A stretch of 64,000 bases of DNA from Synechococcus sp. CC9902 (GTDB lineage: Bacteria > Cyanobacteriota > Cyanobacteriia > PCC-6307 > Cyanobiaceae): contig NC_007513.1 in NCBI RefSeq assembly GCF_000012505.1, positions 1,922,001-1,986,000 of the forward strand, given 5' to 3'. The translations under genes and the position numbers were made by a program. Positions 18,557 to 41,267 of the stretch are shown here, piece after piece; position 1 is the stretch's first letter; the number at the start of each line of letters is the position of its first letter. The notes under the pieces were generated by a model. That model made no database searches, had not been told where the DNA came from, and worked only from the letters and a program-made list of their open reading frames with translations.

Positions 18557-18607
18557 ATCAGCTGTGATCAAATTTCCCTTACATTTCAACCAGTGAGTTG
18601 CCGAGTG

Positions 18608-18922
18608 ATGGCAGAGGAGACACCCACCCGCAGTCCAGGAGGGGCTGCGGTTCTCGATAAGGCGCCTGAGCGTGTTCGGAAACGTTCACCTCGATACAAG
18701 GTGCTGCTTCACAACGACCCTGTGAACAGCATGGAGTACGTCATGACGACATTGCGCCAAGTGGTTCCTCAGCTGAGTGAACAAGATGCAATGGCCGTGA
18801 TGTTGGAAGCCCACAACACCGGCGTTGGCTTGGTGATCGTCTGCGACATCGAACCGGCTGAGTTCTACTGCGAAACTTTGAAATCCAAGGGTCTAACGAG
18901 TTCCATCGAACCCGAGGACTGA
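18608..18922 (+). CDS. clpS: ClpS protease adaptor
   Basis: A 104-residue protein starting MAEETPTRSPGG. The core is typical ClpS: YKVLLHNDPVNSMEYVM contains the NDP motif at the ClpC/ClpA docking and N-degron pocket region, and AVMLEAHNTGVGLV follows. ClpS delivers N-end-rule substrates to the Clp protease. An in-frame GTG at 18593 is less likely. Upstream, 18576-18585 reads CCCTTACATT, a possible -10 region. The next gene starts three bases after its stop. Confidence 0.93.
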   Translation: MAEETPTRSPGGAAVLDKAPERVRKRSPRYKVLLHNDPVNSMEYVMTTLRQVVPQLSEQDAMAVMLEAHNTGVGLVIVCDIEPAEFYCETLKSKGLTSSIEPED

Positions 18923-18924
18923 GC

Positions 18925-19788
18925 TTGATTTCAGCGCTACTGGACAGGTGTCTCCTGGTTCGTCCGCGCTGGCTACCACTGGTTTTGCTTGTGCCAGTCC
19001 TTTACGGACTGGGTTGGCTAATTGCATCAGCACTCATTCCACTGGGAATCCCCAACAGCAGCGTGTCTCTTATTGGAACGCTGCTCAGTTTTTCATTGTT
19101 CCTCGTCGTGATGCCCCACTGGGTGCAACGTCGCTGGCAACGAAAACAATGCTGGATTGCCTTGGGAATCCTTCCATCCCGTAACCAAGCGTGGAAGGTT
19201 CCCGTCGTAGCGCTTTGGCGCGGTTTATGCCTGGCAGTTGGACTGTTGGGAATACTGGTTATTCCAATCCTGCTAAGTGGCTGGGGAACCTGGCGAGGCG
19301 ATTGGACTCTGACAACCGCAATGAATGCGCTCAGCCTCTGCCTTGGGGTGGGGATTGCCGAGGAAATAATTTTCAGGGCGTGGTTATGGACAGAACTCCA
19401 ACACCTCACTAGCCGGTTCGGTGCCGTCGTAGGCCAAGCACTGGTCTTCAGCGTGGTTCATACCCGCTTCAACCTTGGCGTCATGCCCATGCTGGGACTG
19501 TTAACAGGTCTTTTCCTGCTCGGGATGACGCTCGCCATACAGAGAAATCACGACCAGGGATCCCTTTGGGGATGCGTTGGAATGCACGGAGGCCTTGTCG
19601 GTGGCTGGTTTCTTTTAACGCAAGGACTCTTAGACCTCTCTGAAGCACCAGCGTTTCTCGTGGGCTACCCAACCGCACAACCCAATCCCCTCAGTGGGCT
19701 TATTGCAATCACAGCTTTAGGCCTGCTTCTGATCTGGCAATGGCCATCTGTACAGCGCATCAGCCAGCCAGAGAGATTGGGGTCGTAA
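18925..19788 (+). CDS. CPBP family intramembrane glutamic endopeptidase
   Basis: A 287-residue multi-pass membrane protein, start TTG 18925, almost touching clpS. The CPBP/Abi motifs are visible: EEIIFRAWLW with the paired glutamates (near residue 150), FSVVHTRFNLG with His, and a third motif GMHGGLVGGW. About seven or eight hydrophobic segments are present. Family members cleave within membranes (CAAX processing type); the substrate here is unknown. Its tie with clpS suggests only shared expression. Confidence 0.82.
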   Translation: MISALLDRCLLVRPRWLPLVLLVPVLYGLGWLIASALIPLGIPNSSVSLIGTLLSFSLFLVVMPHWVQRRWQRKQCWIALGILPSRNQAWKVPVVALWRGLCLAVGLLGILVIPILLSGWGTWRGDWTLTTAMNALSLCLGVGIAEEIIFRAWLWTELQHLTSRFGAVVGQALVFSVVHTRFNLGVMPMLGLLTGLFLLGMTLAIQRNHDQGSLWGCVGMHGGLVGGWFLLTQGLLDLSEAPAFLVGYPTAQPNPLSGLIAITALGLLLIWQWPSVQRISQPERLGS

Positions 19789-19816
19789 TGGAGACCTCAA
19801 GCTCCATTCAATCGGT

Positions 19817-21634
19817 ATGAGTTCAACCAACCAACCACTTCAAGCTCTCGAAGCTTCCATACAATTAGCCCGCCAAAACTATAAAGAAGCGAAAATCGAC
19901 TCAGCCCTCCAACACATCAAAGAAGGGCTACAGATTGATGAGCACAATGCCCAATTACTCGAGATTGCTGCCAGCACTCATCTTCGTTTCAATAATAACA
20001 ATGAAGCCATTAAATATGCTCAAGAATTAATCACACACCATCCAAGAAATCCGCATGGATACAGCAGATACGCACAAGCCCTGCTGCAACAGAAACAACC
20101 TTTTAATGCCAATCAAATGGCACTTAGCGGATTACAAGAAGCTCCACACAATCAACAGCTCCTGGCATTAACTAGCGAATCTTATCAAGCGCTAGAGCGC
20201 TGGGATCAATCACTAGAACTGGCAAATCAACTTATTGAATTCCATCCAAGCCTGCACATGGGATACCTCAAGGCAGCACAAAACCTTCTAAAACTCAACA
20301 AACCCAACGAGGCTTCTTCTATCGCAGAACGAGGCTTAAAAGCAAAGCCGAACCACCCTCATCTTCATAGCATTGCCAGCGAAGCCTACCGAGCCAGACA
20401 CCTACACAATCACTCACTCAATCACGCAAAAGCCTTAATTGAAAATCAACCAGACTCCATCGAAGGGCATAAACGAGCAGCCCAAGACTTACTGAAACTA
20501 GGGCTAAGGAATGAGGCAATTTTAATCATCGAGCAACTCATTCAACGAAACAAGTCCAAGAAAGCCGCGGCAATGGCCAGCAAGCTCTTCAAAGTAGCCG
20601 GACAAACATCAAGAAGCCTCGTTCTTACAACACAACTCGCCAAAGCAAACGATGCAACAGATGATGATCAACGGCAATGGATTAGCAATTTATTCTCATG
20701 TAGACAGATTGATCTTGCACTATCTAAAATTGAATGCAACAACCCAATCGATGCAGAAATACAGAGCAATACTCTTCGAGCTCTCCTCAGCCAACCACTC
20801 AATACATTTAAGAAACTATCAAAGCATGAGCGGAACTTAATCAGAGAATACGATATCTATTATCACCTATCTCTTCCTAACTTTAATCCAACTCTGGAAG
20901 ATTTAGAACAACGGCTCAAATCCACCAACAAGATCATCCTACTTGTGGTGCATGTTGGGAAATGCGCAGGCGAATCAATCATCACCGCACTAGAAGAAAC
21001 CTTCACCTCAAACGAAGTGGAAGTCATCGAATATCACACTTTTGATAGCAATATGCTGATCAGAGAAAGTCTTCCATTGCTCCACAAGCATTCCGATCGA
21101 ATCCACATTGTGACTTGCACTCGCAATCCTGTGGATCGCTGGATATCTGCTTTCAACTGGGACTACCACACATTTTTCTTATCAAGCCAATTCTATTGTC
21201 CAGACCACATCATTCAATTACATCGCCAATACTTCTCCGCCCTAGAATTAACCAATGGCTTGATGCGGAAGGAAATAGAGGCCCATGAATTGGCCACATT
21301 CAAACACCTTGCCTATGGACACATGGCGAAAGGAATCTCCTGGTACCTACCAGAAGAAATTATCGACAATCTTCCTAAGCAAGCAATATCGACAATCAAT
21401 GTTGAAACAATCCAAAATGACTTCAATCAATGCATTCATACAATCACAACAACTTTCAAACAAATAGGTAAACGGGAACCAACACCCATCCCAAAAACCA
21501 AGCAAAATTATCAACACTGGTACAAATCAGGGGCATTTAGTGCCGCCAGACAATTCAGCGATGCACAAAGACAGTTCCTCGAACAATTCCTAAATGAAGA
21601 TTACAAAGTAAACAATAAATTGAATAAGATTTAG
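19817..21634 (+). CDS. TPR-repeat protein with C-terminal sulfotransferase-like domain
   Basis: A 605-residue protein. Residues 1 to about 275 are TPR-like helical repeats of 34-residue period (for example EASIQLARQNYKEAKIDSAL, then repeated HPRNPHGYSRYAQALLQ-type units). From about residue 373, VVHVGKCAGESI resembles the 5'-phosphosulfate loop of PAPS sulfotransferases, and TCTRNPVDRWISAFNW near 431-446 the 3'-phosphate site. It may sulfate a surface glycan; the acceptor is unknown. The DNA is much AT-richer than its neighbours (21 G+C in the 60 bases from 20701), which suggests later arrival. There is no signal peptide. Confidence 0.75.
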   Translation: MSSTNQPLQALEASIQLARQNYKEAKIDSALQHIKEGLQIDEHNAQLLEIAASTHLRFNNNNEAIKYAQELITHHPRNPHGYSRYAQALLQQKQPFNANQMALSGLQEAPHNQQLLALTSESYQALERWDQSLELANQLIEFHPSLHMGYLKAAQNLLKLNKPNEASSIAERGLKAKPNHPHLHSIASEAYRARHLHNHSLNHAKALIENQPDSIEGHKRAAQDLLKLGLRNEAILIIEQLIQRNKSKKAAAMASKLFKVAGQTSRSLVLTTQLAKANDATDDDQRQWISNLFSCRQIDLALSKIECNNPIDAEIQSNTLRALLSQPLNTFKKLSKHERNLIREYDIYYHLSLPNFNPTLEDLEQRLKSTNKIILLVVHVGKCAGESIITALEETFTSNEVEVIEYHTFDSNMLIRESLPLLHKHSDRIHIVTCTRNPVDRWISAFNWDYHTFFLSSQFYCPDHIIQLHRQYFSALELTNGLMRKEIEAHELATFKHLAYGHMAKGISWYLPEEIIDNLPKQAISTINVETIQNDFNQCIHTITTTFKQIGKREPTPIPKTKQNYQHWYKSGAFSAARQFSDAQRQFLEQFLNEDYKVNNKLNKI

Positions 21635-21668
21635 CCAATATCAATCAATACTACTGAATCGAAACTCT

Positions 21669-23246
21669 CTATTTCACCGCATCAGCGATTGCAGCTCTGC
21701 CCAAGACAGGTGCCCTTAAGGCTTCTTTCAAGGGAGAAATGCCATAATCTCGCTCAAGAATATTCATCACAGTGCGGCCAAAATCGGCCGCATTTTGATC
21801 AAAAGCTTCCAAACAGACGCGGCCGAATGTACTACCCATCGGCTCAGGGTTCCATAGCAATTTTCTAGCGGTCCAGGGCATCATGCTCATAGGGTTATAA
21901 CCGGGTTTGATCAATCCTTGATCGAAGCCATATTGTTCAAGATGCGTATGAGGCTGTAATCCAATAAAGAAAATTGCCGGCTCAACTCGATCCGCACCAA
22001 AAATCTTTTCTAATTCTCTGTGATACGCCACGGTTTGGCGGATAGTTCCGGGCCTTTCGTCGATCACATTGAATGAATAATTGACTGATACGTGATCTTT
22101 AAAGCCAGCCTCCGCCAACATCCGACAACTCTCAAGAACAGTTCGGAGGTTGTAACCCATTCGCATCTTGCGAACCAACTCTTGGGAACCTGACGTAATA
22201 CCAATCTCGAAATAGCTCATCCCAGTTTCAACCATGAGTTGAGCGAGCTCAGGATCGAGGTTATCGGCGCGGATGTAAGCAGCCCAACGAATTCCAGTCA
22301 GTCCTTCAGCTTTAATCGCGCGTAACAGCTCTTTTGCATCTTCGATATAACGACGTGCTGGAATAAATTGAGCATCGGTGAACCAAAAGCCACGAACGCC
22401 ACGGTCATAAAGCTGGCGCATTTCAGCCACAACTTCATCAACCGGATTCAATCGAACCTGCTTTCCTTCCACAACGGTATAAATGCAATAGCAGCAGTTA
22501 TGGGGGCAACCACGCTTGGTTTGAACGCCAACGTAGAAATCACCAGCTTCTAAATACCAATCAAGTTGGGGCCAGATAGAAGCGATATAGGAATAATCGC
22601 AAGCCGTTTTGGGTCGACTCTCAGGCTGTTCATGGATTAGTCCTGAGCGAGGGGGCTCACCAACTTGAAAGCAGCGTTCGCCTTCGAGCGACTGACCCAG
22701 AAGAAGCTTTTCAAGTAGCGGCTCTCCCTCTCCCACAGAAACAATCGTTCCCTTCGGCAGGGAACGACTCAATTGCTCATAAAAGACACTGACGGCACCA
22801 CCGCCAAGCACCGCACGGGCTTCTGGATGATGGCGGCACGCACGTTTCAGGCCACGACGAACAAGCGACTGATTGCGATGCAACTCGCCGTAATGGCTGG
22901 TCATCAAGCGCAAACCCCCAAGGGCACCATGGAGGCGCTTTAGGGGATTGCGGGCATAAAAGACCTCAAAGGAATTTTGAAGAGGGTTACCGCCGCGACC
23001 ATCAACCGGGGCATAAATCTGAATATCCCGCCAGGAAAACACCAACAAGGTGGGTCGAAACTGATCCACGGTGGCCAGAAGAACCCTCTGCACATCCAGC
23101 ACAGGAAGTGCCGCCAAATCAAGGATGCGCTGGGGCATCCCTGGAAAACATTTGTGCAGGTGGTCGGCCAAATACACGGGGCCGATCGGGAAAATTGGAT
23201 TGCACGGCAGCCGCACCAGCAGCACCCGTTCCTGTTGTGGAGACAA
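21669..23246 (-). CDS. B12-binding-domain radical SAM protein
   Basis: A 525-residue protein divergent from psbA. The N-terminal 200 residues look like a cobalamin-binding-type Rossmann domain (VLLVRLPCNPIFPIGPVYLAD and VLGGGAVSVFYE), followed by the radical SAM cluster motif GCPHNCCYCIY (CX3CX2C) at about residue 243. FTDAQFIPARRYIEDAK and ISYFEIG-like SYFEIGITSGSQELV follow. The family includes methylases and cyclases of lipids and pigments; I cannot name the reaction. No ATG lies in frame near the 5' end, so the start is TTG 23246 or a GTG just inside. Its position beside psbA is suggestive only. Confidence 0.82.
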   Translation of the reverse strand: MSPQQERVLLVRLPCNPIFPIGPVYLADHLHKCFPGMPQRILDLAALPVLDVQRVLLATVDQFRPTLLVFSWRDIQIYAPVDGRGGNPLQNSFEVFYARNPLKRLHGALGGLRLMTSHYGELHRNQSLVRRGLKRACRHHPEARAVLGGGAVSVFYEQLSRSLPKGTIVSVGEGEPLLEKLLLGQSLEGERCFQVGEPPRSGLIHEQPESRPKTACDYSYIASIWPQLDWYLEAGDFYVGVQTKRGCPHNCCYCIYTVVEGKQVRLNPVDEVVAEMRQLYDRGVRGFWFTDAQFIPARRYIEDAKELLRAIKAEGLTGIRWAAYIRADNLDPELAQLMVETGMSYFEIGITSGSQELVRKMRMGYNLRTVLESCRMLAEAGFKDHVSVNYSFNVIDERPGTIRQTVAYHRELEKIFGADRVEPAIFFIGLQPHTHLEQYGFDQGLIKPGYNPMSMMPWTARKLLWNPEPMGSTFGRVCLEAFDQNAADFGRTVMNILERDYGISPLKEALRAPVLGRAAIADAVK

Positions 23247-24677: not shown

Positions 24678-25643
24678 ATGGATCACGCTCTCAAATGCGC
24701 CATGCAGGAACAAGCCAAGGCGGCGGTTCTTGATGGCAAATGGGAGCAACTGCGCTTTCTTGGCAACCGGTTTGAACGCGCCGGTTGTTACGCCGAGGCA
24801 TGGAATGCTCTCGCTGAAAAAGTTGAAAAAACATCCACTCAGACCCTGCCGATCTGGCCAGGGCCTAAAGAAATCAGTAACGGAGTGCTCGTGCTGCCAA
24901 GGTCTCGTGACTTGGGAGATGAACTGCGCATTCTTCGCTATCTGGGCAACCTCCAGGCCCACACCCAACGGGTGACGGCCCTCGTCGATCCACGTTTAGC
25001 GCCACTCCTCGAGCGAAGTTTTCCTGGTTTGGTGTGTACGGACCCAGCTCAACCTCCACCACTTCATGGAATCACGCACATGGCGGCACAGGAACGCCTA
25101 GCCCTGTGGTTTGGTGCCAACGCAGAGCAAATCAAAGCTGATTTTCGTCCCTTGATTTCGAAGAAAGAACCACAGCAAAAGTGTCGTGGCATTGGCATTA
25201 GCTGGTTCTCTCGGTCAAAAAACAAAAGCTTCCCAAGCATCGAAGACTGGTCAGTCCTGCTCAAAAACGTTCGTCAACCCATCCGTTCCCTCCAATACCT
25301 GGAGAAGCCTGCTCGGATTCGCCAACTCCAAGAACTCAGCGAACAACGAATTCAGAGCTCGCGACCCATCGATCAGCTCAACGATCTCGATGGTTTTGCT
25401 GAGCAAGTCAGTGAGGTTCGTGGGGTGCTGACGATTAGCAACACGACCGCTCATATGGCTGGGGTCTTGGGTGTGCCATGCGTGGTGATCCTCGACAACG
25501 GCTCGATTACGAACTGGCCAGACATTGGCGACCAATCACCGCTTTATCCACACACCCGTCTCGTACGGCGGGGGAACGACCCATGGGTGACAACCCTGCA
25601 ACGGGGATGGGCCGCCCTGAAACCCATGCTGCAGAAACGCTGA
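24678..25643 (+). CDS. Glycosyltransferase family 9-like protein
   Basis: A 321-residue protein. The C-terminal part, VLTISNTTAHMAGVLGVPCVV (residues about 250-270, split here by description), resembles the nucleotide-sugar-binding end of GT9/heptosyltransferase-fold proteins, where ISxxTxxAHLAGxLG is typical. The N-terminal 50 residues may be a short TPR-like helical pair. In marine cyanobacteria such domains are often attached to TPR proteins, so catalytic activity is not certain. It follows the psbA terminator and sits almost directly against the next gene. Confidence 0.6.
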   Translation: MDHALKCAMQEQAKAAVLDGKWEQLRFLGNRFERAGCYAEAWNALAEKVEKTSTQTLPIWPGPKEISNGVLVLPRSRDLGDELRILRYLGNLQAHTQRVTALVDPRLAPLLERSFPGLVCTDPAQPPPLHGITHMAAQERLALWFGANAEQIKADFRPLISKKEPQQKCRGIGISWFSRSKNKSFPSIEDWSVLLKNVRQPIRSLQYLEKPARIRQLQELSEQRIQSSRPIDQLNDLDGFAEQVSEVRGVLTISNTTAHMAGVLGVPCVVILDNGSITNWPDIGDQSPLYPHTRLVRRGNDPWVTTLQRGWAALKPMLQKR

Positions 25644-40073: not shown

Positions 40074-41267
40074 ATGCGACCATTCGGCATCCAGAAACTT
40101 TACCTCAAAGACGAACCTACGAACATAGTTCAAGCTGCTTCTGCACGATTAAGAAACAGACAAACAATCACACCAAATAGTTGCGATATCATCACAATTA
40201 CAGGTAACGAAGAATGCTATATCGCCCAGTTTATTCACCACTATCTTTACTTGGGATTCAGCAATATATTTATCGGGATCAATAATTGCCAGGACAAAAC
40301 TCCAGCCATTCTCAAGAAAATTGCCAAGATATATCCGAAAATTTTTATCTTCAACACCGATCAACCGCAACGCCTCCATCGGCAAAGCGGCTCCTATGCG
40401 GCACTGATCGATGAGGCATCTCATCGCACTAAGTCGAGCCATTGCCTCGTGGTCGATATCGACGAATACTGGTTCTCCAACAAGCCGAACCGATCGATTG
40501 CGAGCTACCTCAGACAATTCGATCGATTTGATTTGATGTTTACCAATTGGCTTTGCACCTATGGGCAAAGCTATCAGACATGTTTTACAGACCTAACAAA
40601 GGCCAAGATTGAACTAAAAAAATCACAGGGGAAAAGTATTTTCAACTACTCAGTACCACTACGCAAACTTCGAGCACATGTGCCCGATGTGGAATCTCCA
40701 GAGAGAGCCGTTTTTGTTGGCAACAATGGCAAAAAAATTAATTGGATGAATGAAGCCAACAAACTGCATGTAAATCCATCCCTGCCTCAACACCTAAGAA
40801 CAGTGAATAAATTGCACCAACATCTCGAGGAATCACAAAACTCGGCATGGATTCTGCATCAGATTGTTCGCAGCGAGCTGGAATATTCATTAAGACTCTT
40901 TGAACCTAGGGTTGCCAAGCATCCAGAACCATTTAAAACCAATCGCCACGGCTGGATCATGCCGAAAGAGAGTCGACAAGAGCGACAATTTTTCAAATTA
41001 ATCCTTTCAAAAAAATCTTTCAACAAACGCTACATAAAAACCTATGAGAAATTCCTTCGTCAATGTCAAATCAAGAATATTGTCGAAAAAAGCTTTAACC
41101 GCATCACCGAGAGACAAGTCTTTTGTAAAATTAACCAGCTAAATCATCAAAAAATTGAAGCTTATCAGTCTATTTGGAGAGAAATATTTCAAGGAACCCG
41201 CTTTCTCCCCTATCTAGAGCTGCGCCTAAAAACAAAAAAGCGACTCCGAATCAACGATTGTTCTTGA
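40074..41267 (+). CDS. Glycosyltransferase family 2-like protein
   Basis: A 397-residue protein. ITGNEECYIAQFIHHYLYLG near residue 42 is the opening of the GT2_4/GT92-like group, where a glutamate-rich NEE precedes a helix, and VVDIDEYWF near 126 supplies the DxD metal site. The C-terminal 150 residues are basic and unassigned. The acceptor is unknown. The DNA is strongly AT-rich (20 G+C in the 60 bases from 41041, against 39 in the 60 from 45001), which suggests transfer. No mobility gene is nearby. Confidence 0.75.
   Translation: MRPFGIQKLYLKDEPTNIVQAASARLRNRQTITPNSCDIITITGNEECYIAQFIHHYLYLGFSNIFIGINNCQDKTPAILKKIAKIYPKIFIFNTDQPQRLHRQSGSYAALIDEASHRTKSSHCLVVDIDEYWFSNKPNRSIASYLRQFDRFDLMFTNWLCTYGQSYQTCFTDLTKAKIELKKSQGKSIFNYSVPLRKLRAHVPDVESPERAVFVGNNGKKINWMNEANKLHVNPSLPQHLRTVNKLHQHLEESQNSAWILHQIVRSELEYSLRLFEPRVAKHPEPFKTNRHGWIMPKESRQERQFFKLILSKKSFNKRYIKTYEKFLRQCQIKNIVEKSFNRITERQVFCKINQLNHQKIEAYQSIWREIFQGTRFLPYLELRLKTKKRLRINDCS

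Follow-up and report, generated by a model that had tools for sequence, protein, structure and literature searches.

Marine Synechococcus is a major primary producer, and to our knowledge the variation of surface chemistry among its close relatives is poorly known. In Synechococcus sp. CC9902, a strikingly AT-rich gene lies between two conserved core genes, and it raises the question of what kind of enzyme it encodes and how it came to be at that site. A preliminary description had read it as a recently acquired enzyme that sulfates a surface glycan, with N-terminal repeats choosing the acceptor. We examined it within the whole stretch of 64,000 nucleotides analyzed here (the window), whose genome is designated G000, and against samples of 34 genomes of the genus and 400 of the family. 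The reading that we favor, and to which we would give about an even chance, is a TPR-armed PAPS sulfotransferase that acts on a surface glycan and is carried, together with the preceding CPBP gene, in a block swapped at one slot. A literature search that left most subscription journals and supplements outside its reach found nothing on this gene, the clpS–rSAM slot, a 68-residue TPR module or TPR-sulfotransferases.

The gene and its neighbors

The TPR-sulfotransferase gene runs from 19817 to 21634 on the plus strand, starts with ATG and encodes 605 amino acids. The assignment is based on the open reading frame and on homologs at the same site in three other genomes of the genus (G022, G013 and G010), with a contig-end fragment in a fourth (G011). 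Its GC content is 0.423, against a mean of 0.553 (sd 0.033) for 1818-base windows across the 64 kb; the minimum of these, 0.424, starts at 19901. The gene is thus the lowest-GC gene-length stretch of the window, as the preliminary description had indicated in placing its composition far from that of its neighbors. No membrane helix is apparent in the protein, the highest 19-residue hydropathy being 1.65. The genome encodes APS kinase (E 2.2e-70), which makes PAPS. There is no glycan cluster adjoining the gene.

The left conserved anchor of the site is clpS (18593 to 18922, plus strand), which has 85–97% amino acid identity in 27 other genomes. The right anchor is the convergent rSAM_slr0320 gene (21669 to 23246, minus strand; NF045585, 971.7 bits). 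The names clpS, LL-diaminopimelate aminotransferase and psbA are assumed ones, in part taken over from the preliminary description. Between the anchors and ahead of the sulfotransferase gene is a CPBP (Rce1-like) membrane protease gene (18925 to 19788, plus strand; PF02517, E 3.5e-13). CPBP is divergent even among close relatives, and the motifs EE..FR and H are kept across 28 sequences.

The preliminary description had the sulfotransferase gene sitting alone, with no mobility gene in the vicinity, and the second half of that statement holds, the first only in part. The gene reads in the same direction as CPBP, and its start is 29 nt past the CPBP stop. In G013 and G011, which carry the same kind of gene, the overlap of the following frame with CPBP is 4 nt and 17 nt, respectively; in G014 and G021, where that frame encodes a sulfatase, it is 7 nt. 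Between clpS and the radical SAM gene, the ORF list of the window has only CPBP, the TPR-sulfotransferase gene and small overlapping frames, and no mobility gene is evident there; an integrase-borne genomic island would carry one inside the slot. Farther along, a 321-amino-acid protein encoded downstream of psbA (24678 to 25643, plus strand) has no Pfam match up to E 1, and by eye a similar ORF is also present in the psbA region of G022.

The repeat arm and the C-terminal domain

Residues 6–275 (19832 to 20641, plus strand) form eight TPR-like helical hairpins, amounting to about four 68-residue double-TPR units, as judged by Pfam, model helices and periodicity. TPR_14 scores 39.7 bits (cut-off 23.5) and TPR_19 36.4 bits (cut-off 25). 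The full-length model has 16 helices over this span, and the 10-residue blocks from 11 to 280 have mean pLDDT of 81–97. The 275 or so residues of TPR-like repeats described before were therefore correctly recognized. The repeat unit is 68 rather than 34 residues: the self-offset score is 0.77 at 68 and −0.15 at 34, and 100 shuffles gave at most −0.16. A self-score that is positive and highest at an offset of 68 or 69 characterizes 14 of 20 proteins compared, one of which is a fragment of another TPR protein of the same genome; shuffle controls for this periodicity cover four of the 20.

A four-row profile of the TPR part matches 14 of the 400 family genomes at E <= 1e-12, distributed over 4 of 59 genera, and the 14 loci reduce to 13 distinct proteins outside the genus. 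With a seven-row profile on a phylum sample of 259 genomes, 4 genomes match at E <= 1e-25, all in the same family. The C-terminal domains of ten of these proteins were scanned. Two are DUF1796 (L126 and L120), two resemble Gly_transf_sug, one is Glyco_tranf_2_4 (L129), and five have none that is clear. The two Gly_transf_sug scores (L119, 22.9 bits; L122, 15.8 bits) are both under the cut-off of 23. L116 consists of TPRs only. The 68-residue period is clear in L115, L116, L118, L119, L120, L126 and L131, and it is not shown by L122, L129, L134 and L136, nor by a TPR–WcbI fusion in G006. The 68-residue TPR module is common to picocyanobacterial proteins with varied C-terminal domains.

Whether the module also goes with glycan enzymes is a separate matter. 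Among the glycosyltransferase-type and WcbI fusions, only L119 has the 68-residue period. For the others, the E values against the TPR profile are no better than 1e-13 to 1e-17, and matches near 1e-13 are close to background because L123 (in G291), which is one of the 13 proteins and an ordinary TPR plus Sulfotransfer_3 protein, reaches that value. The link to glycan enzymes comes mainly from L119, and as a hint about glycans, it is thin.

Several of these fusions are of interest in themselves. The G006 protein (L090:4891-6405) joins TPRs to a domain of the WcbI family of polysaccharide biosynthesis enzymes (PF18588, E 3.7e-20). In L126 (G328) and L120 (G251), the 68-residue module is fused to DUF1796, a putative papain-like peptidase. 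In a second AT-rich stretch of the window (40074 to 41267, plus strand), there is a stand-alone Glyco_tranf_2_4 protein (E 2.4e-13) with 33% identity over 356 residues to the C-terminal part of L129, a TPR-containing glycosyltransferase from another genus.

Following the repeats is a helical linker of mostly low confidence (residues 276–355; 20642 to 20881, plus strand), with a mean pLDDT of 44–67 for the 10-residue blocks between 291 and 360. The remainder, residues 356–605 (20882 to 21631, plus strand), is predicted, with good support, to take the PAPS-sulfotransferase fold. A model of residues 338–605 built from a seven-row alignment has pLDDT 83.8 and pTM 0.83. The full-length model has pLDDT 80.9 and pTM 0.56, with the low-confidence linker between the halves. 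VIA-align, applied to 1000 Foldseek candidates, listed 50 entries, and all 50 are sulfotransferases or SULT-family retinol dehydratase. The best (3bd9) has Z 11.3 with rmsd 4.1 over 196 aligned residues, where models lacking a clear match give best Z values of 7 to 8. The best 17 rows are all heparan-sulfate sulfotransferases (Z 11.3–9.8, rmsd 3.7–5.5, 188–210 residues aligned). Foldseek itself found no match in the PDB at E <= 0.001, its first three rows being beta-carbonic anhydrases with TM 0.21–0.23. Against viral models, it gave 8 matches at E <= 0.001, of which 4 are named sulfotransferase, 2 are unnamed, 1 is a capsular polysaccharide protein and 1 a glycosyltransferase. The preliminary description had left its reading to stand or fall with a fold prediction for this domain, and the fold that emerges is the one it proposed.

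By sequence, the domain matches the PHROGs entry phrog_3347, "Galactose-3-O-sulfotransferase", at E 3.4e-6. Pfam Sulfotransfer_2 (PF03567) reaches 15.7 bits over residues 375–447 (E 0.017), which is under the cut-off of 22, and membership in that family was rejected on this score; the family was not reported at E <= 0.1 in four relatives scanned. A search of the whole G000 genome found two PF03567 matches, both elsewhere. The usual partner of TPRs in TPR-sulfotransferases is Sulfotransfer_3 (PF13469), and it is absent from the 15 families listed for the window protein up to E 1, in a search where the HMMER filters drop most matches above about E 0.1. NCBIfam gave nothing useful for the C-terminal part, and a PDB search by sequence gave one match only, at E 2.1.

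The 5'-phosphosulfate loop, H379 to S387 (HVGKCAGES; 20951 to 20977, plus strand), is identical in a four-sequence alignment at all positions except V380. The 3'-phosphate motif, R436 to D449 (21122 to 21163, plus strand), reads R436-NPVDRWISAFNWD, and R436, S444, N447, W448 and D449 are invariant in the same alignment. R436 and S444 are eight residues apart, the spacing expected for a 3'-phosphate motif. In the model, both motifs fall where they should, behind strand 1 and strand 3, respectively: HVGKCAGES follows the strand at 373–379, and R436 and S444 follow the strand at 429–435. The 5' loop, but for its one residue, and the key 3' residues are thus constant among relatives that otherwise share about 30–40%, and the earlier claim that both motifs occur in one chain with the repeats is correct. 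Also invariant is E405-x-H407-x-F409-D410-x-N412 after strand 2 (21029 to 21052, plus strand), which is a possible acceptor or base site.

The slot and its exchange among strains

The distribution of the gene in the genus, which the preliminary description had wanted checked, is patchy. The whole protein finds matches at E <= 0.001 in 16 of 34 genomes, most by the TPR part only. The near-full-length relatives are those of G022, G013 and G010, and in G011, the TPR half is present at a contig end. The C-terminal domain alone matches 8 of 400 family genomes at E <= 0.001, and in a phylum sample of 386 genomes, 3 do so at E <= 1e-8, every one from the same family. The best C-terminal match outside the genus is a stand-alone 275-amino-acid protein in G168; by eye, the stretch around it has several transposase-like ORFs. 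The enzyme domains of the alleles are almost equidistant, at 37–43% pairwise identity, and in the TPR part, G013 and G011 are the closest pair (44.9%). No phage copy was found by tblastn at E <= 0.01 in 50,697 phage records or in two scans of viral contigs. Phages do carry sulfotransferases of similar fold, as seen in the viral models. Of 31 candidate stretches obtained from genome contigs with the single protein, none was confirmed; an alignment-based scan confirmed 2 of 46, both Synechococcus records.

A search at E <= 1e-100 recovered the rSAM_slr0320 gene from 27 of the 34 genus genomes, among them all 19 high-quality ones, and these 27 make up a census of the slot. Four have the TPR-sulfotransferase (G000, G022, G013 and G010); G011, with its fragment cut at the contig end, is a 28th genome. 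Three others (G002, G021 and G014) pair a small Sulfotransfer_2 enzyme with a type I sulfatase. Eighteen have no insert: in 17 of these, CPBP and rSAM overlap by an identical 61 nt, and in G003, they are separated by 1 nt. The remaining two have short gaps (178 nt in G007 and 398 nt in G029), in which searches for relics of either cargo gave chance-level matches only (E 2.2 or worse). In the 17 overlapping cases (e.g., L066, L067 and L070), the last 20 or so residues of CPBP are read from rSAM antisense.

The three cassettes of sulfotransferase and type I sulfatase, with the motif CSPYR, are at L062:258-2331, L069:313-2396 and L077:4906-6991. The sulfatase matches Pfam Sulfatase at E 2.8e-49 in G002 and is confined to the slot: at E <= 1e-20, three of the 34 genus genomes have it, and at E <= 1e-60, three of the 400 in the family. 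By eye, neither the sulfotransferase nor the sulfatase has an obvious signal peptide. A search of nine genus genomes for FGE-sulfatase (PF03781) gave a strong match in G021 (E 5.7e-74) and only matches near 1e-25, in 397- and 400-amino-acid frames, in G002 and G014, so that maturation of the sulfatase is less evident in these two.

Alignment of the window to its close relatives delimits what has been replaced. To G002, the blastn alignment breaks off at 18929 and picks up again at 21698; to G013, these points are 18972 and 21721. Identity to both is about 0.9 up to clpS and about 0.4–0.6 through CPBP. From these alignment ends and the drop in identity, the exchanged block of CPBP plus cargo extends approximately from 18930 to 21700. 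Over the whole flanks, identity to G002 and G013 is 91.0 and 89.5% on the left and 87.7 and 85.2% on the right. For comparison, Dufresne et al. (2008, PMC2441476) give an ANI of 91.3% for Synechococcus CC9902 and BL107, a value near the 91.0% of the left flank. In the comparison with G002, identity is mostly near 0.8 over rSAM and 0.99–1.0 where psbA begins; therefore, the tract could extend to psbA. The C-terminal half of rSAM (21669 to 22460) is unusually AT-rich in the window and in G013 (GC 0.475 and 0.466), less markedly in G010 (0.502), and G022 lacks this bias (0.567); an imported tract may reach into it.

The histories of the flanks and of CPBP conflict. A core tree of four flanking core proteins (28 rows, G019 having only 32% of the columns) groups G000, G002 and G013 (SH-aLRT 96). 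The CPBP tree instead places G002 with G007, G013 with G011 and G000 with G029. The CPBP data reject the group of G000, G002 and G013 (AU p 7.6e-5) and the same clade with G029 added (1.8e-5), and they also reject both pairs tested (p 0.002 and 0.007). The core data reject G013 with G011 and G002 with G007 (p below 1e-38). The tested groups were named after the trees had been seen, the closeness of the G000, G002 and G013 flanks having been plain beforehand, and the trees are of a quick kind, with long branches for CPBP. On the core tree, the slot states show no significant clustering, as expected under exchange: they need 9 changes, a number that 81 of 200 shuffles equal or undercut, and 28 tips afford little power. 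Clustering is stronger on the CPBP tree (7 changes, equaled or undercut in 2 of 200 shuffles), where no cargo type is one clade and the minimum would be 3 changes. Because of the tree conflict and the drop in identity at the block ends, CPBP plus cargo behaves as an exchangeable block, and this behavior of the slot is well supported.

Function, alternatives and known systems

Starting from the observed gene, repeats, conserved motifs, slot contents and tree conflict, we infer the activity, the acceptor, the role of the TPR arm, a functional link with CPBP and the means of exchange as follows. The gene would encode a cytoplasmic PAPS-dependent sulfotransferase, in which the 68-residue double-TPR modules form an N-terminal superhelix for docking or scaffolding. 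With PAPS as donor, the enzyme would most likely sulfate a sugar, either in a surface glycan or in its lipid-linked precursor, before export. That heparan-sulfate sulfotransferases occupy the 17 best structural rows makes a glycan acceptor plausible, and a glycan is our best guess. The gene and the preceding CPBP gene would form the exchangeable unit of a slot arranged as clpS, then CPBP plus cargo, then rSAM_slr0320. Marine Synechococcus strains would swap this unit for a very divergent allele, for the sulfotransferase and sulfatase cassette or for a version free of cargo, probably by homologous recombination in the conserved flanks.

A broader proposal is that the slot is a surface-chemistry switch. 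Cassettes coupled to CPBP would add sulfate, add and remove it, or do neither, on one class of surface glycan, and the 68-residue double-TPR module would be a docking arm found on many picocyanobacterial enzymes with the same job. We offer this tentatively and consider it unlikely as a whole. If true, the arrangement would be akin to serotype switching, with phages or grazers perhaps exerting the selection. The slot might instead be a neutral, insertion-tolerant gap between convergent core genes, into which two unrelated sulfotransferases were inserted by coincidence, and this we regard as a serious possibility, though we lean against it. Convergent gene ends generally tolerate inserts, Sulfotransfer_2 genes are common in the genus (30 of 34 genomes, compared with 0 of 14 controls), and profile comparison of the two slot sulfotransferases aligns only a short motif (17 columns, probability 33%). 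A neutral gap does not so readily account for the cargo in the eight genomes with a slot gene, which is only TPR-sulfotransferase or sulfotransferase plus sulfatase with no third type, or for the frames that overlap CPBP in two genomes with each kind of cargo.

The exchange of a CPBP-plus-cargo block, as preferred here, also has to be set against the history in the preliminary description, a single recent insert from an AT-rich donor unrelated to its neighbors. That gene is in the lowest-GC stretch of the window, its distribution is patchy, no mobility gene is evident, and the close relative G002 has other slot contents. Low GC is no sign of recent arrival, however, because all five alleles at the site are AT-rich and the homologs share that one site (G022, G013, G010 and the G011 fragment), and dating by AT-richness was rejected. 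In addition, CPBP changed along with the gene, and the enzyme domains are almost equally far apart. We consider the single insert improbable. What survives of a recent lone acquisition is that the gene looks exchanged between close relatives, as a block with CPBP and not alone. As to function, a PAPS sulfotransferase acting on protein tyrosine, a peptide, a lipid or a small metabolite, with the TPR arm binding the protein substrate or a partner, seems somewhat unlikely to us. In VIA-align, the heparan-sulfate enzymes are followed at no great distance by SULT enzymes (up to Z 9.5) and by a tyrosylprotein sulfotransferase (Z 7.9), and TPR superhelices usually bind peptides or proteins; the nearest co-directional gene, moreover, encodes a membrane protease, and where the 68-residue module is clearest in other proteins, what follows it is DUF1796 or an unassigned domain and no clear glycan enzyme. 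Against these stand the heparan-sulfate enzymes that fill the top 17 structural rows and the galactose-3-O-sulfotransferase name of phrog_3347. Finally, a degenerate domain limited to binding PAP or PAPS, for instance to sense sulfur status, would fit the sub-threshold Pfam score and the strong divergence of the alleles. It is very improbable given that both cofactor motifs and ExHxFDxN are invariant in relatives at only about 30–40% identity.

With the glycan sulfotransferase in an exchanged block as the preferred reading, the value of the locus is that one small core-bounded slot holds different sulfate-ester enzymes in strains whose flanks are 85–91% identical. Differences in sulfation between sister strains, and their relevance to phages or grazers, thereby become testable, and the common 68-residue TPR module provides a handle on several unannotated picocyanobacterial proteins.

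Among known systems, the closest listed folds to the window model are the solved structures of the heparan-sulfate 3-O-, N-, 2-O- and 6-O-sulfotransferases (Z 11.3 to 9.8), which are animal secretory-path enzymes and have 8–14% identity to the window domain over 188–210 residues. The Sulfotransfer_2 family, including the small enzymes of G002, G021 and G014, shares with the window protein the 5' and 3' phosphosulfate motifs, and those small enzymes share its slot; they score 58.7, 52.8 and 57.8 bits, respectively (the last value from the genome search), above the PF03567 cut-off that the window protein fails to reach. XssA and XssE of the synechan system in Synechocystis 6803 are, like the window gene product, cyanobacterial sulfotransferases, and theirs serve a sulfated exopolysaccharide (PMC8205485). 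Comparing by description, they belong to a full polysaccharide cluster on a plasmid, and the window gene has no such cluster beside it. The same paper reports that cyanobacterial sulfotransferase genes are mostly in putative extracellular polysaccharide synthesis clusters (PMC8205485), and the window gene, lying outside one, differs from that majority. According to the Cyanorak paper, TPR proteins and glycosyltransferases are among the most abundant annotated unique genes (PMC7779031). The fusion of TPR and Sulfotransfer_3 in L123 is like the window protein in having a TPR superhelix before a PAPS-sulfotransferase domain in one chain. It differs in having ordinary TPRs (best offset 102, a multiple of 34) and a clear PF13469 match (E 4e-25); the window protein is built on the 68-residue unit, and PF13469 is not among its matches. 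Among TPR-sulfotransferase fusions, the window gene draws its interest from the swappable slot and the shared repeat module.
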